NCBI RefSeq assembly: GCF_005144585.1
Contig: NZ_SSMQ01000006.1
Location: forward strand, 62,001 to 126,000
Direction: 5' to 3'
Length of the DNA: 64,000 nucleotides
DNA from: Polyangium fumosum
GTDB lineage: Bacteria; Myxococcota_A; Polyangia; Polyangiales; Polyangiaceae
Shown here in pieces: positions 49,344-54,472 of the stretch (position 1 is the stretch's first letter; each line of letters opens with the position of its first letter). The notes under the pieces are model-generated. The model did not search any database. It saw nothing but the letters and a program-made list of their open reading frames with translations, and was not told the DNA's origin. The position numbers and the translations under genes were made by a program.

Positions 49344-49575
49344 CTCGGAAGTGTAGCAGATCCGATCCAAGGGAGGCTCTTTCTGCCCGACGAACTGCGC
49401 GGCCGCCAAGCACGTTCCCCGCACGTCCAGCCTGGTCCAAGCATGCCCGCGTCGCTCCGCCCGCACGCTCGATCGTCGGGTCGCTCACGCGCGCTCGATG
49501 CAAGCACTCCGTAAACGGCGCGATCCAGCGGCGAATTGGGCGTCCAGGACAGCGCCTGTGATACGCTCTCGGGCG

Positions 49576-51288
49576 ATGTCGCGGGGCACTTATTCCATAA
49601 GGATGCTTTGGTTCGTGCTGTCGCTCGTGGCCCTCGGATGCGGGGGGCGGGCGGAGCTGCTCGGGCCAGGACAAGGCGAGGACGGCCAGGGCGGCCAGGG
49701 CGGCCAGGGCGGAGGCATTCCCTGCCTCGAAGACGGGGTCCCCTGCCAGGACGGGAGCCCCTGTTGCAGCGGCACCTGCCAGAACGGCGTTTGCGGCCCG
49801 TCGACCTGCCTGCCCGACCAGGCGCCTTGCATGGACCCGAGCGAGTGCTGCGCCGGCATCTGCGCGAACGAGCGCTGCGGCTTCACCACGTGTTCCCCCG
49901 ACGGCTTCGGCTGCGTCTCGGGGCTCGAATGCTGCAGCGGCATCTGTCAAAACGGCGCCTGCGGGTTCGGCCCGTGTTTGCCGAACAACGCGAGCTGCAT
50001 CGAAGGCAGCCAGTGCTGCAGCGGCGGCTGCTTCGAGGGCCTCTGCAGCGACACATGCCTGCCCGACGGCTCGTCCTGCTTCGACAACGTCCAGTGTTGC
50101 AGCGCCGTCTGCAACGGCGGCGTGTGCGGGTTCAACCAGTGCGTGCCCGACGGCGGGGGCTGCATGTCGAGCTTCGATTGCTGCAACGGCTCGTGCAGCA
50201 ACGGGGTCTGCGGCATCGGGCAGTGCACGGGCAACGGCCTCATGTGCAGCTCGCCCGACGAGTGCTGCTCCGGCCTCTGCTCGAACGGCGTTTGCCTCGG
50301 CAAGCCCTGCACGCACGACGTCTGCGTGGTCGGAACCGCGCTCGATCCCGGCTGCGGGCCGTGCGCCGCGTCGATCTGCCAGCTCGACCCGTTCTGCTGC
50401 AACGGGATCTGGGACGGGCTCTGCGTGAACGCCGTGGACTCGGTCTGCGGGCTGAAATGCGGCGAGTGCACGGAGGATGGCCTGCCGTGCATGTCGGGCG
50501 ATTCGTGCTGCTCGCAGGTCTGCAACGCGAACGGGACCTGCGGCCCGCTCGTCTGCGCGCCCGACGGCAAGCTCTGCCAGACCGGCGGCGAGTGCTGCTC
50601 CGGGCAATGCTCGAGCGGCGTCTGTGGTCCGCCGGCCTGCAAGCCGGACGGCGTGCCCTGCATGATCGCCGGCGAGTGCTGCACGAACCAGTGCTCGAAC
50701 GGCGTCTGCGGCCCGCCGGTCTGCAAGCCCGATGGCCAGATGTGCGCGGGCGCCGGCGAGTGCTGCACGGGCCTCTGCTCGGACGGCGTCTGCGGCCCGC
50801 CCAAGTGCCAGCCCGACGGCAACGCCTGCATGACGGCCGGCGACTGCTGCACGGGCGTCTGCACGAACGGCGTCTGCGGCAAACCCGTCTGCCAGATGGA
50901 CGGCGTTCCCTGCAACGTGCCGAGCGATTGCTGCTCGGGCCTCTGCTCGGACGGCGTTTGCGGCCCGCCGCAGTGCCAGCCCGACGGCAGCATGTGCATG
51001 AACGGCGCCGCGTGCTGCTCCGGGCAGTGCACGAACGGCGTCTGCGGCGCGCCGGCCTGCCCGTCGGACGGCAGCGTGTGCGGCAACTGCGTGGCCCAGA
51101 GCTGCTGCAACCAGCTCCAGAACTGCATCAACAACCCCACCTGCCAGAACAACGTGCAGTGCTTCCTCACGTGCGTGGCCGGCGGATCGAGCCCGGGCCC
51201 GTGCTTCTTCCAGTGCGTGAACAGCCCGCAAGCCGTGCAGCTCCTCGTCTGCCTCGGCTCGAACTGCGGCCAGGGCACCTGCTTCTAG
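49576..51288 (+). CDS. Lipoprotein with 14 knottin-like cysteine repeats
   Basis: A 570-residue predicted lipoprotein (signal ending VALGC, Cys22, then GQGGQGGQGGG linker). Fourteen repeats of about 28 residues follow the pattern C-x-P-D-G-x-x-C-x5-C-C-x-G-x-C-x-N-G-V-C-G, as in ACKPDG / GECCTNQCSNGVCG. Between units seven and eight lies a different segment (CGPCAASICQLDPFCCNGIW). The C-terminus has further cysteines ending NCGQGTCF. The six-cysteine spacing suggests disulphide-knotted modules outside the cytoplasm. The ATG at 49576 is used; an ATG at 49603 preceded by ATAAGG also leaves the signal intact. It is two bases from the next gene. Confidence 0.82.
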   Translation: MSRGTYSIRMLWFVLSLVALGCGGRAELLGPGQGEDGQGGQGGQGGGIPCLEDGVPCQDGSPCCSGTCQNGVCGPSTCLPDQAPCMDPSECCAGICANERCGFTTCSPDGFGCVSGLECCSGICQNGACGFGPCLPNNASCIEGSQCCSGGCFEGLCSDTCLPDGSSCFDNVQCCSAVCNGGVCGFNQCVPDGGGCMSSFDCCNGSCSNGVCGIGQCTGNGLMCSSPDECCSGLCSNGVCLGKPCTHDVCVVGTALDPGCGPCAASICQLDPFCCNGIWDGLCVNAVDSVCGLKCGECTEDGLPCMSGDSCCSQVCNANGTCGPLVCAPDGKLCQTGGECCSGQCSSGVCGPPACKPDGVPCMIAGECCTNQCSNGVCGPPVCKPDGQMCAGAGECCTGLCSDGVCGPPKCQPDGNACMTAGDCCTGVCTNGVCGKPVCQMDGVPCNVPSDCCSGLCSDGVCGPPQCQPDGSMCMNGAACCSGQCTNGVCGAPACPSDGSVCGNCVAQSCCNQLQNCINNPTCQNNVQCFLTCVAGGSSPGPCFFQCVNSPQAVQLLVCLGSNCGQGTCF

Positions 51289-52226: not shown

Positions 52227-52733
52227 CTACCGGGAGAACGAGAGGCCCCACCACGCGATCACGCGCGGCGCGCCGCCCTGATCGAAGATCACGGGGCCGA
52301 TGCCGAGGCCGGGCGTGATGGAGCGCAGTTCGTCGCGGAGCGCTCGCACGGGCCACGCATGCCCCTGCGCAGGATCGTCATACCGGAACACGAGCGTCGG
52401 CCCGCCATCGAGCGACGACTCGGCGCGCTCGACGCGGAACGGCGCGACGCGGCGGCCCCCCTTGAGGAGGTTCCACCCGATCTCGCTCTCGATGGCCTTG
52501 CCCTCCCACGGCAAGAGATCCGTCGCGAGGAGCCGAACGAGGCTCCGAACCGCGAGGAACGCGCCGGGCGCCGCGACGAGCGCGAGCACGCGGCCGCGGC
52601 CTTCCCCGATGGACGAGGGATCGAGGGCGCTCCCGGCCGCATAGATGCGGCGGAGCGACTCGGGATGCGCGCCGACGAGCTCGTCGAGCGACCGAACCTT
52701 CGAGACGACGCGACCGGGCTCCACTGCCTGCAT
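52227..52733 (-). CDS. Uncharacterised protein
   Basis: A 168-residue protein I do not recognise. It has one moderately hydrophobic stretch (VLALVAAPGAFLAVRSLVRL) that may be amphipathic rather than membrane-spanning. Features include SLDGGPTLVFRYDDPAQGH and a C-terminal APRVIAWWGLSFSR. The ATG at 52733 is chosen; the upstream in-frame ATG at 52769 runs into the repeat element. Its stop directly abuts that of the convergent outer-membrane-type gene. Confidence 0.55.
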   Translation of the reverse strand: MQAVEPGRVVSKVRSLDELVGAHPESLRRIYAAGSALDPSSIGEGRGRVLALVAAPGAFLAVRSLVRLLATDLLPWEGKAIESEIGWNLLKGGRRVAPFRVERAESSLDGGPTLVFRYDDPAQGHAWPVRALRDELRSITPGLGIGPVIFDQGGAPRVIAWWGLSFSR

Positions 52734-52791
52734 GCGCCGCAGGTTGCATGGTTTCGGAACGCGCAGCAACGCGGAAGGGTCTCTTCGTGGA

Positions 52792-53139
52792 GGCGTTGCG
52801 CTGGGGCTTTGCCCCAGGCCCCACCCGGGGCTGTCCGCCCCGGGACCCGGACCAGCGAGGCGCTGGACCCAGGTCGATGAACTGCGCGATGCGCAGTTCG
52901 TCGAACAGCCAGGGTCAAGACCAGCGACGACCTTGTCAGCAGAGACCGCAGCGCTGCTGGTTCAACCAGCAACGTACCCGTTGCCAGCTTGGAACCCACC
53001 TCGATGGTCTTGCCACCGGCCCGTTGGAAGAACTGCGCGATGCGCAGTTCTTCCATCCCCGGTCCAGGCCGTGCCTGGTCCGGGGTCGAGGGGGCGGACA
53101 GCCCCCCGCGGGGTCCGGGGCAGCGCCCCGGCGCAACGG
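52792..53139. repeat. MITE-like nested inverted-repeat element
   Basis: The ends (about 52792-52853 and 53079-53139) are imperfect inverted repeats of each other of about 60 bases, roughly 80 percent identical by eye, with the shared GGGGCTGTCCGCCCC block. Inside lie two copies of the hairpin AACTGCGCGATGCGCAGTT (52880-52898 and 53031-53049) and a GCTGGTTCAACCAGC palindrome (52956-52970). There is no transposase. The arrangement suggests a dispersed non-autonomous element or a structured RNA. Confidence 0.75.
53025..53055. repeat. Perfect 14-bp stem hairpin
   Basis: The second inner hairpin extends outwards as TGGAAGAACTGCGC/GCGCAGTTCTTCCA with a GAT loop, giving a perfect 14-base stem. No U-tract follows on either side. 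The first copy (52880-52898) has the same inner stem but diverges beyond it, so this block has been duplicated and kept able to pair. Confidence 0.75.
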
Positions 53140-53149
53140 CTGCGAAAGG

Positions 53150-54472
53150 TCAGGCGCGCGGCGGGCGGGGCGGAGGTGTGCTTCGCGAGGGGACCTGCTG
53201 GGGCGGCTGCGCGGACGGGGCCGCGAGTGCGGGTGCAGGCGCGCTTGTGCCAAGGCGGCGCGCGACGTCCGTGAGATCGAGCCCCGTGGCTGCGCGGATT
53301 TGCTCGGTCACGGCGATCGCCTTGCGTGCAAGCGAGGCGTCGTCGCCCGACGGGAGCACCGAGAGCGTACCGATCTTCGTCGGCGTGCGGGCGCCTGCGA
53401 TGTGCGGCAGGAGCGGCATCATCTGCTGAAGTGCGAGGATCTCCAGGGCGCCTGGCCCGGCCTTGCGGATCTCGTCGACGATGCGGTGCAACGCCTCGGC
53501 CTCGGCCTTGCCGAGCTCGATGATCTTCGCTGCGTCGCCGCGCGCTTGCTCTTCGAGGTTCCGCCGCTCGGCGTCGTGCGGCTGGATCACGTCGGCGAGG
53601 AGCTGCCGCTCGACCTGGAGCGCGCGGGCCTTCTGGCGGTTGATCTCCGCCTTGACCTGCGCGATCTGCGCGAGCACCTGGCCCTTGGCCTCCTGGATCA
53701 TGGCCTCGCGGCGGCTCAACGCGTCCTTGACGCGCTTCTGCGTCTCCTGCCGCGCGATCGCGAGGTCCGCGTCGATCTTGGCGACCTCGCTCTTCGCCCA
53801 GTTCTCGGCCTTCTGCTCGGCCGACTCGGCCTGCGTCCTGGCCTCGACGATGCTCGCATCCATGCGGACGCTCGCTCCGCGCATGCGGCCGATCGAGTTC
53901 AGGTAGTTCGCGTCGTCGGCGACGTTCTGGATCTTCAGCGTGTCGAGCACGAGGCCCATGCGCTGCATGTCGTGCTCGGCTTCTTCGAGCAGCTTGTCGG
54001 CGAACGCGGTCTTGTCCTGGTTCACCTGCTCGGGCGTGAGCTGCGCGAGCACGCCGCGGACGTTGCCTTCGAGCGTCTCGCGCGCGATCGCCGCGATCTC
54101 GTCACGTGACTTGCCGAGGAAGCGCTCGACCGCGTTCGAGAGCCGCGGCTCCTCGCCGGGGAGTTTTACGTGCGCGACGCCTTGCACGTTGAGCGGGATG
54201 CCGCCCTTCGAGTAGGCGCCCTTCACGGAGATGTCGACCGGGATGTTGTTGAGATCCATGCGGTCGACGCGCTCGAGCAGCGGGATGCGCACGGCGCGGC
54301 CGCCGCGCACGGAGCGATAACCGACCGCGCGCGAGCCCACCTGATGCGACCCGCCCGAGAGGATGAGCACCTCGTTCGGCGAGCTCACGAGCAGCAGGTT
54401 CTTCAGCGTGTAGACGACGAAGCCCACCACGACGAGCGCGGTCAGGCCGAGGACCATGATGATCGGGATCAC
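53150..54472 (-). CDS. SPFH/flotillin-like membrane protein 2
   Basis: A 440-residue SPFH protein. One N-terminal transmembrane helix (IIMVLGLTALVVVGFVVYTL) precedes the SPFH domain (SPNEVLILSGG, VPFLE-like RIPLLERVDRMDL, AYSKGGIPLNVQGVAHVKL). A long coiled coil rich in A/E/Q/R (about 190-330) is followed by a Pro-rich tail (PAPALAAPSAQPPQQVPSRS). It is a paralogue of the gene before it and is coupled to it by a four-base overlap. Flotillins form membrane microdomain scaffolds with NfeD-type partners; here all three are in one operon. Confidence 0.88.
   Translation of the reverse strand: MIPIIMVLGLTALVVVGFVVYTLKNLLLVSSPNEVLILSGGSHQVGSRAVGYRSVRGGRAVRIPLLERVDRMDLNNIPVDISVKGAYSKGGIPLNVQGVAHVKLPGEEPRLSNAVERFLGKSRDEIAAIARETLEGNVRGVLAQLTPEQVNQDKTAFADKLLEEAEHDMQRMGLVLDTLKIQNVADDANYLNSIGRMRGASVRMDASIVEARTQAESAEQKAENWAKSEVAKIDADLAIARQETQKRVKDALSRREAMIQEAKGQVLAQIAQVKAEINRQKARALQVERQLLADVIQPHDAERRNLEEQARGDAAKIIELGKAEAEALHRIVDEIRKAGPGALEILALQQMMPLLPHIAGARTPTKIGTLSVLPSGDDASLARKAIAVTEQIRAATGLDLTDVARRLGTSAPAPALAAPSAQPPQQVPSRSTPPPRPPRA

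Follow-up and report, generated by a model that had tools for sequence, protein, structure and literature searches.

The stretch at 52792-53139 of the window, by which we mean the whole 64,000-nucleotide segment of Polyangium fumosum DNA analysed here, is best explained as an old MITE copy of an IS4-family, Tn5-like insertion sequence (IS) of Polyangium, a reading to which we assign a probability of about 0.72. The initial annotation had proposed a non-autonomous mobile element typical of its lineage, and that proposal is supported by the present results, namely dispersed copies, empty orthologous sites, transposon ends with 9-bp duplications in sister copies, a matching IS and a distribution nearly restricted to one genus within its family. 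The transposase of the IS would act in trans on the MITE ends.

The inverted repeats described initially are real: the outer pair (52791-52841 / 53091-53141) spans 51 nt with 82% complementarity and continues inward (52846-52869 / 53061-53084) for 24 nt with 79% complementarity. Their description as a terminal repeat of about 60 bp can be refined: in each half, four hairpins follow one another and together form an arm of ~120 nt. Both AACTGCGC hairpins are present, at 52874-52904 (13 of 14 pairs) and at 53025-53055 (a perfect 14-bp stem with a 3-nt loop), and the palindrome GCTGGTTCAACCAGC lies at 52956-52970. Consistent with the reported lack of an internal transposase, no ORF of at least 60 aa lies wholly within 52792-53139, and several ORFs cross its edges. 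Read from the left, the copy comprises a type B arm, ~110 nt of spacer and a type A arm in inverted orientation, with the following features.

52227..52769, minus strand: downstream ORF without a Pfam match; the start given by our home-made gene caller is 52724
52769..52786, plus strand: left transposon end remnant, 11/18 of CTGAGCATTGGTCTCATC, with GGTCTC and the final TC kept
52792..53139, no strand: MITE core, comprising B arm, spacer and inverted A arm (repeat and copy searches)
52792..52910, plus strand: B arm, four hairpins (arm profile match at C167:114792-114910 of the own genome)
52801..52817, plus strand: hairpin 1 of the B arm, CTGGGGC-TTT-GCCCCAG (hairpin map)
52824..52844, plus strand: hairpin 2 of the B arm (hairpin map)
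52852..52866, plus strand: hairpin 3 of the B arm, in other copies the main IS landing site (hairpin map)
52874..52904, plus strand: hairpin 4 of the B arm, 13/14 pairs (repeat search)
52956..52970, plus strand: spacer palindrome GCTGGTTCAACCAGC, poorly kept among copies (78% of cells paired)
53019..53139, minus strand: A arm, four hairpins (arm profile match at C167:115019-115139 of the own genome)
53025..53055, minus strand: hairpin 4 of the A arm, perfect 14-bp stem
53064..53078, minus strand: hairpin 3 of the A arm, containing on the minus strand GGCACGGCC, the 9-bp target of nested insertions elsewhere
53090..53106, minus strand: hairpin 2 of the A arm
53115..53131, minus strand: hairpin 1 of the A arm, with 7 stem pairs invariant in 46 aligned copies
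53150..54472, minus strand: upstream gene with an SPFH/Band 7 domain, ending in a stop codon ~10 nt away from the core

The element thus lies between two genes of the same direction, the Band 7/SPFH gene and then the downstream ORF. Elsewhere in the window (49498-51288), a long ORF contains a recurring cysteine-rich unit with the pattern C..DG..C....CCSG.C..G.CG.

A DNA search of the own genome gave at least 40 matching places, counting the window copy itself (40 being the number scored among 355 first-look candidates), and the best of the others is 91% identical to the window stretch. The exact hairpin GAACTGCGCNNNGCGCAGTTC occurs 248 times in this genome and 177, 183, 431, 480 and 37 times in five congeners (G001-G005). 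The repeat is present in all six Polyangium genomes and, at a single site, in one of 102 other genomes of the taxonomic family. In a wider collection, whose scan may have left out the own genome, 75 of the 80 stretches listed (from 97) came from Polyangium sp. 15x6, 6x1 and y55x31, and the other five came from unrelated records with one site each, which we take as chance. A catalogue of 265 unique copies, from which five non-Polyangium loci (L209, L221, L236, L260 and L275) are excluded, comprises 173 pairs and 92 single arms. In 163 of the 173 pairs, an A and a B arm face each other as an inverted doublet, and the general plan is that of inverted arms A and B, of four hairpins each, around a variable spacer.

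Several variants of this plan were observed. Three composite copies in G001 (C1:6197950-6198930, 6301350-6302320 and 6316080-6316990) contain a repeated arm and, between the arms, an additional module of ~400 nt. In the one-arm copies G002 C24:146220 and G004 C66:142345 and 165100, hairpin 4 is replaced by a hairpin of the type TGCATCG(G/C)CCGC, and stems of GACTGCGC, AAACCGCGC or GACAGCGCGC occur in other copies, with complementarity retained in each case. Tandem TGAGC repeats adjoin the element in the flanks of L005, L007 and L039 and near position 198300 of the own contig C167. Among the matches listed, positions 1-2316378 of G001 C1 (a 13.2-Mb contig) contain one of the 177 exact hairpins, and it is possible that copies avoid one part of this chromosome.

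The link to a transposon comes from the termini of the younger copies, which are bounded by the 18-bp sequence CTGAGCATTGGTCTCATC and flanked by 9-bp duplications. The own genome contains 73 such ends with at most two mismatches, and the 18-mer is found with at most one mismatch in 6/6 Polyangium genomes. Among 171 paired copies, six have both ends (≥15/18), 14 have one and 151 have none. Four of the six two-ended copies show a perfect 9-bp duplication; in L174 the duplication is read out of step by one base, and no target duplication was seen at G001 C1:6085166. The copy at C167:143799-144190 of the own genome has CTCACCGCT on both flanks, and the empty site in G003 has this 9-mer once. Overall, 13 units have a duplication of at least 8/9, comprising six MITE cores, four Polyangium ISs, two units with other contents and one distant IS from another genus.

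In G001, these ends also delimit a 1504-bp element (C1:6280185-6281688) with a 481-codon open frame, whose first Met is codon 7. Its predicted protein contains the Tnp_DNA_bind, DDE_Tnp_1 and Dimer_Tnp_Tn5 domains, matches the IS4-family transposase model NF033590 (254.8 bits; cut-off 160) and matches Tn5 transposase structures (E 4.6e-36). Transposases of the IS50/Tn5 type of the IS4 family carry a Y-(2)-R-(3)-E-(6)-K signature. With at most 14 candidates scored per genome, four full IS copies were found in G001 and one 84% copy in G003, together with partial, more distant copies in G004 and G005; in G002, which holds 183 hairpins, none of the 14 candidates scored gave a transposase match at E 1e-20. 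The own genome has IS fragments of 98% and 87% identity at contig ends. Target duplications of the IS are 9/9 at L342, L343 and L345 and 8/9 at L344; a clean one of 9 bp is absent from L346, the G001 copy used as reference. Because this IS shares its ends with the repeat and encodes a Tn5-like IS4-family transposase, the repeat is best read as its MITE. Many contigs of the own genome end ~60-300 bases inside an IS or MITE copy (e.g. C14:92, C15:92, C16:92, C20:107, C47:107 and C68:94), and the draft assembly therefore seems to break at collapsed copies.

The window copy itself is old. Its left remnant sits at the expected distance from the core, and 8 of 336 distant control flanks also reach at least 11 matches; on the right flank no recognisable end was found (best 8/18). 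Since intact ends are missing here, the case for movement of this particular copy is drawn from sister copies and from empty orthologous sites. Target-site duplications, proposed at the outset as a check, are a property of sister copies with ends, where they measure 9 bp, and around end-less copies (n=116) they do not rise above shuffles. In 111 A and 145 B ends without a transposon end, conservation breaks off abruptly ~14 nt to the outer side of the hairpin-1 GGGG. Partial traces of the transposon end are in excess among 272 ends, 13 of which hold a 7-mer of it vs none for the reversed control and 41 a 6-mer vs 15, counts whose CTGAG share is confounded by nearby TGA stop codons and TGAGC repeats. 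This excess is limited to a minority, so that movement by the IS-end route is demonstrated copy by copy for only a small part of the family.

As 151 of 171 paired copies are without clear ends, an older spreading route has to be weighed, in which the core would be a REPIN/BIME-like palindrome that spread by other means, and of which one sublineage later acquired IS ends and is now moved as a MITE. The abrupt edge and the missing duplications at the 116 end-less copies fit this account, as do the predominance of such copies, the resemblance of the inverted A/B pairs (163/173) to REPINs and the existence of one-arm copies (92 of 265 unique copies). Against it, no Y1 (RAYT-type) transposase was found in three of the six genomes, which nevertheless carry 177-431 hairpins, and the Y1 gene of the own genome lies in a 3.4-kb locus without a core arm; mobilization by RAYT/Y1 was rejected as the general motor. 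The excess of IS-end traces at end-less copies also speaks against it, and because intergenic flanks change fast between congeners, lost ends are to be expected in any case. We consider this account unlikely, while ranking it first among the alternatives.

Comparison of orthologous sites supports the MITE reading and points to turnover of the core. At the window site the element is present in G001 and G004 and absent from G002, G003 and G005, and further sites, among those listed, are filled in one congener and empty in another. The arm order at the window site is reversed in G004, as it is at a second site (C167:180824 of the own genome vs G004 C66:159838). When orthologous partners were ranked by similarity among the copies of the target genome (85 of the 173 paired copies used and six of eight chosen pairs compared), they reached ranks 8/21, 14/21, 5/7, 5/6 and 6/7, and the window pair of the own genome and G001 reached 1/21. 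With the exception of this window pair, orthologous copies are thus mostly as unlike as random copies, as would result from gene conversion, or from recombination following a nested landing, which would also flip the orientation. By either route, the ends of old copies would have eroded as the core was renewed.

Nested landing is seen in the own genome. After flanks identical over their last 40 bases had been collapsed into one and those shorter than 30 bases discarded, 66 distinct end flanks remained, belonging to the IS (21), to MITEs (40) and to other units (5). Seventeen of the 21 IS flanks were flagged as lying in a core and two more (L315 and L335) were assigned by reading, giving 19/21, with L197 and L316 outside; hairpin 3 holds 16 of these 19. 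As each IS copy contributes two flanks, the 21 flanks represent about ten copies. Among the MITE flanks, six of 40 were flagged in a core and L179 and L199 were added by reading, and two of the five other-unit flanks were flagged. In the congeners, three of the four full IS copies in G001 and the single one in G003 also lie within a core, by reading. The typical target is GGCACGGCC in the loop of hairpin 3. Given that the core makes up 0.8% of contig C167, landing of the IS there amounts to a strong preference.

Other units with the same ends follow this pattern. A 2.09-kb unit in G001 (C1:6314037-6316126, in L144), which carries a long passenger ORF, is nested in hairpin 3 of a core with a 9-bp duplication of GGCACGGCC, and a 252-bp unit of the own genome (C167:180898-181149, L182), unrelated inside, is nested in hairpin 3 with the duplication GGCACAGCC. 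In another genus of the family (G056), a distant IS (L305) has similar ends, with six mismatches in total over both, and its 9-bp duplication, CTTCAGAAG, is centred in a plain hairpin, which hints that landing in hairpins may predate the genus Polyangium. Across 13 rebuilt target sites the mean stem score is 6.3 vs 3.3 at random (random 95th percentile 6). As a rule for free insertions, whose rebuilt sites favour hairpins only weakly, targeting of hairpin loops was set aside as suggestive at most, the high scores belonging to nested units, L305 and L170.

These observations can be joined, tentatively and at rather less than even odds, into a self-seeding system. The MITE would spread hairpins behind genes, and the IS and new MITEs would land in those hairpins, which would thereby serve as their own safe harbour. 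Recombination between old and new arms would renew the core, erase the ends and flip the orientation, so that orthologous sites come to carry unrelated copies, and complementarity would be kept by DNA-level processes (cruciform correction, template switching or whole-hairpin exchange) and not by selection on RNA.

The location of the copies relative to genes was assessed with gene calls from a home-made codon model for 219 search-returned copies of the 265 unique ones, a non-random sample that includes orthologs and from which 46 copies were skipped for short flanks or a missing neighbour. Convergent gaps hold 128 copies, tandem gaps 76 and divergent gaps 15, in comparison with expectations by intergenic length of 12%, 45% and 43%, respectively; by gap number (n=1081), there are 181 convergent (17%), 634 tandem and 266 divergent (25%) gaps. 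Within tandem gaps, 54 of 76 copies are no more than 30 nt away from the upstream stop codon, in comparison with 17% expected if placement were uniform. Because a copy that splits a gene is called tandem (as at L185 and L170), these placements cannot show that no gene is hit; four of the 219 copies were weakly flagged as spanning an open frame.

Of 23 loci with end-bearing MITE copies, five (L192, L309, L313, L323 and L341) could not be placed; with the element removed, the remaining 18 comprise six inside a called gene, four convergent, five tandem, one divergent (L308) and two with one neighbour only. Among the six intragenic copies, L185 and L320 lie well inside the gene, L170 lies 37 nt from the gene end, and L172, L177 and L318 have an approximated far end. 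With 6/18 end-bearing copies intragenic, some part at least of the 3′ bias in the whole set stems from purging and not from targeting; insertion preference and purging are probably both at work, with a larger role for purging than would be judged from the old copies by themselves. The hairpins may in addition terminate transcription from both sides, which would render insertions behind genes harmless.

A stronger form of this last idea would have the copies domesticated, that is, kept as bidirectional transcription terminators or 3′ protectors. The strong bias towards gene 3′ ends, the very stable folds on both strands and the pairing of local stems in 96.6% of cells all accord with such a role, and G003 and G005, which are elementless at the window site, have a plain 12-bp hairpin there instead. 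Purging of harmful insertions, however, would yield the same bias, copies at orthologous sites mostly resemble each other no better than randomly chosen ones, and the stems show almost no G-U intermediates. At C167:205794 of the own genome, moreover, a plain terminator-like hairpin is retained next to the element. We regard domestication as doubtful, somewhat more so than the older palindrome route.

Preservation of the stems themselves was measured on an alignment of 46 copies, in which 96.6% of the local hairpin cells are paired and 75 are double-changed vs 16.8 in shuffles, a count of sequences and not of events, such that a few inherited hairpin variants could explain many of them. When the spacer helix is set apart, the hairpins show 73 double-changed cells, a single wobble cell and 53 unpaired ones; 31 of these unpaired cells come from one pair of A-arm hairpin 2, at which a difference in length puts the alignment out of register. 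In the spacer helix itself, changes on one side number 27 and unpaired cells 60. Arms A and B of the window copy are also able to pair with each other; as a conserved structure this long-range pairing was rejected, with 39 double-changed cells vs 21.7 in shuffles and 16 pairs with double changes vs 12.8, a value reached by 57 of 500 shuffles. As long-range pairing covaries little beyond shuffles, the local hairpins are what is kept. An RNA under selection should retain more G-U intermediates, as are seen in the spacer helix; their scarcity points to upkeep at the DNA level (cruciform-type correction or template switching) or to exchange of whole hairpins, and we infer that the hairpins are held complementary as DNA.

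The structured RNA offered by the initial annotation as an alternative fares poorly, and we consider it very improbable that the core encodes one: the window stretch folds with z = -12.0 on the plus strand and local hairpins covary, yet the minus strand folds about equally well (z = -11.6; 0/100 shuffles as stable on each strand), no Rfam family matches at gathering thresholds (only far-below matches, with E up to 5), tandem copies are entered by transcription from the A-arm side in 26 cases and from the B-arm side in 25, and the proposed covariation check returned double changes almost without G-U intermediates (73 vs one wobble cell outside the spacer helix). An RNA gene was accordingly rejected as the main reading.

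Set against known systems, the Polyangium family resembles bacterial IS-derived MITEs in being short, non-coding and multicopy, with ends in common with an autonomous IS and a target duplication; it differs in its core of eight GC-rich hairpins plus spacer and in that most copies are without recognisable ends. The IS shares its transposase domains, similar protein length and 9-bp duplication with the IS50/Tn5 type of the IS4 family. Its insertions, in contrast, are concentrated in one repeated hairpin, a preference that Tn5 is not known to have.

Among the REP-targeting ISs, ISRm22 (IS4 family) of Sinorhizobium meliloti lies in REPs in 10/10 cases in the table of the report concerned and in nine copies in its text, and ISPpu9 (IS110 family) in 7/7 (PMC1525189). 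The shared feature is an IS landing in a dispersed palindrome; the difference is that the Polyangium palindrome is a MITE whose younger copies share the ends of the IS. REPINs, described as inverted REP doublets tied to RAYT genes, with 93% of 430 doublets inverted (PMC3116915), share with the present family the inverted hairpin pairs with a spacer and the many extragenic copies. The present family differs in that no Y1-type gene was found in three of the six Polyangium genomes and that the younger copies carry DDE-type ends and 9-bp duplications. The sections of PMC1525189 and PMC3116915 consulted describe no MITE serving as the landing site of its own IS, and among the open-access papers listed for Polyangium and myxobacterial repeats no title or abstract opening deals with this family, an absence that, given the open-access scope, proves little.

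MITEs, REP-like palindromes and palindrome-targeting ISs are usually separate stories, and here they are joined in one Polyangium family. The MITE of a Tn5-like IS is that IS's main landing site (in the own genome, and for few copies in two congeners), and its old copies collect behind genes. Covariation within repeated hairpins, as seen here, need not imply a functional RNA. With many copies per genome and six congeneric genomes, the family offers a way into the origin of palindromic repeats, the maintenance of their complementarity and their accumulation at the 3′ ends of genes.
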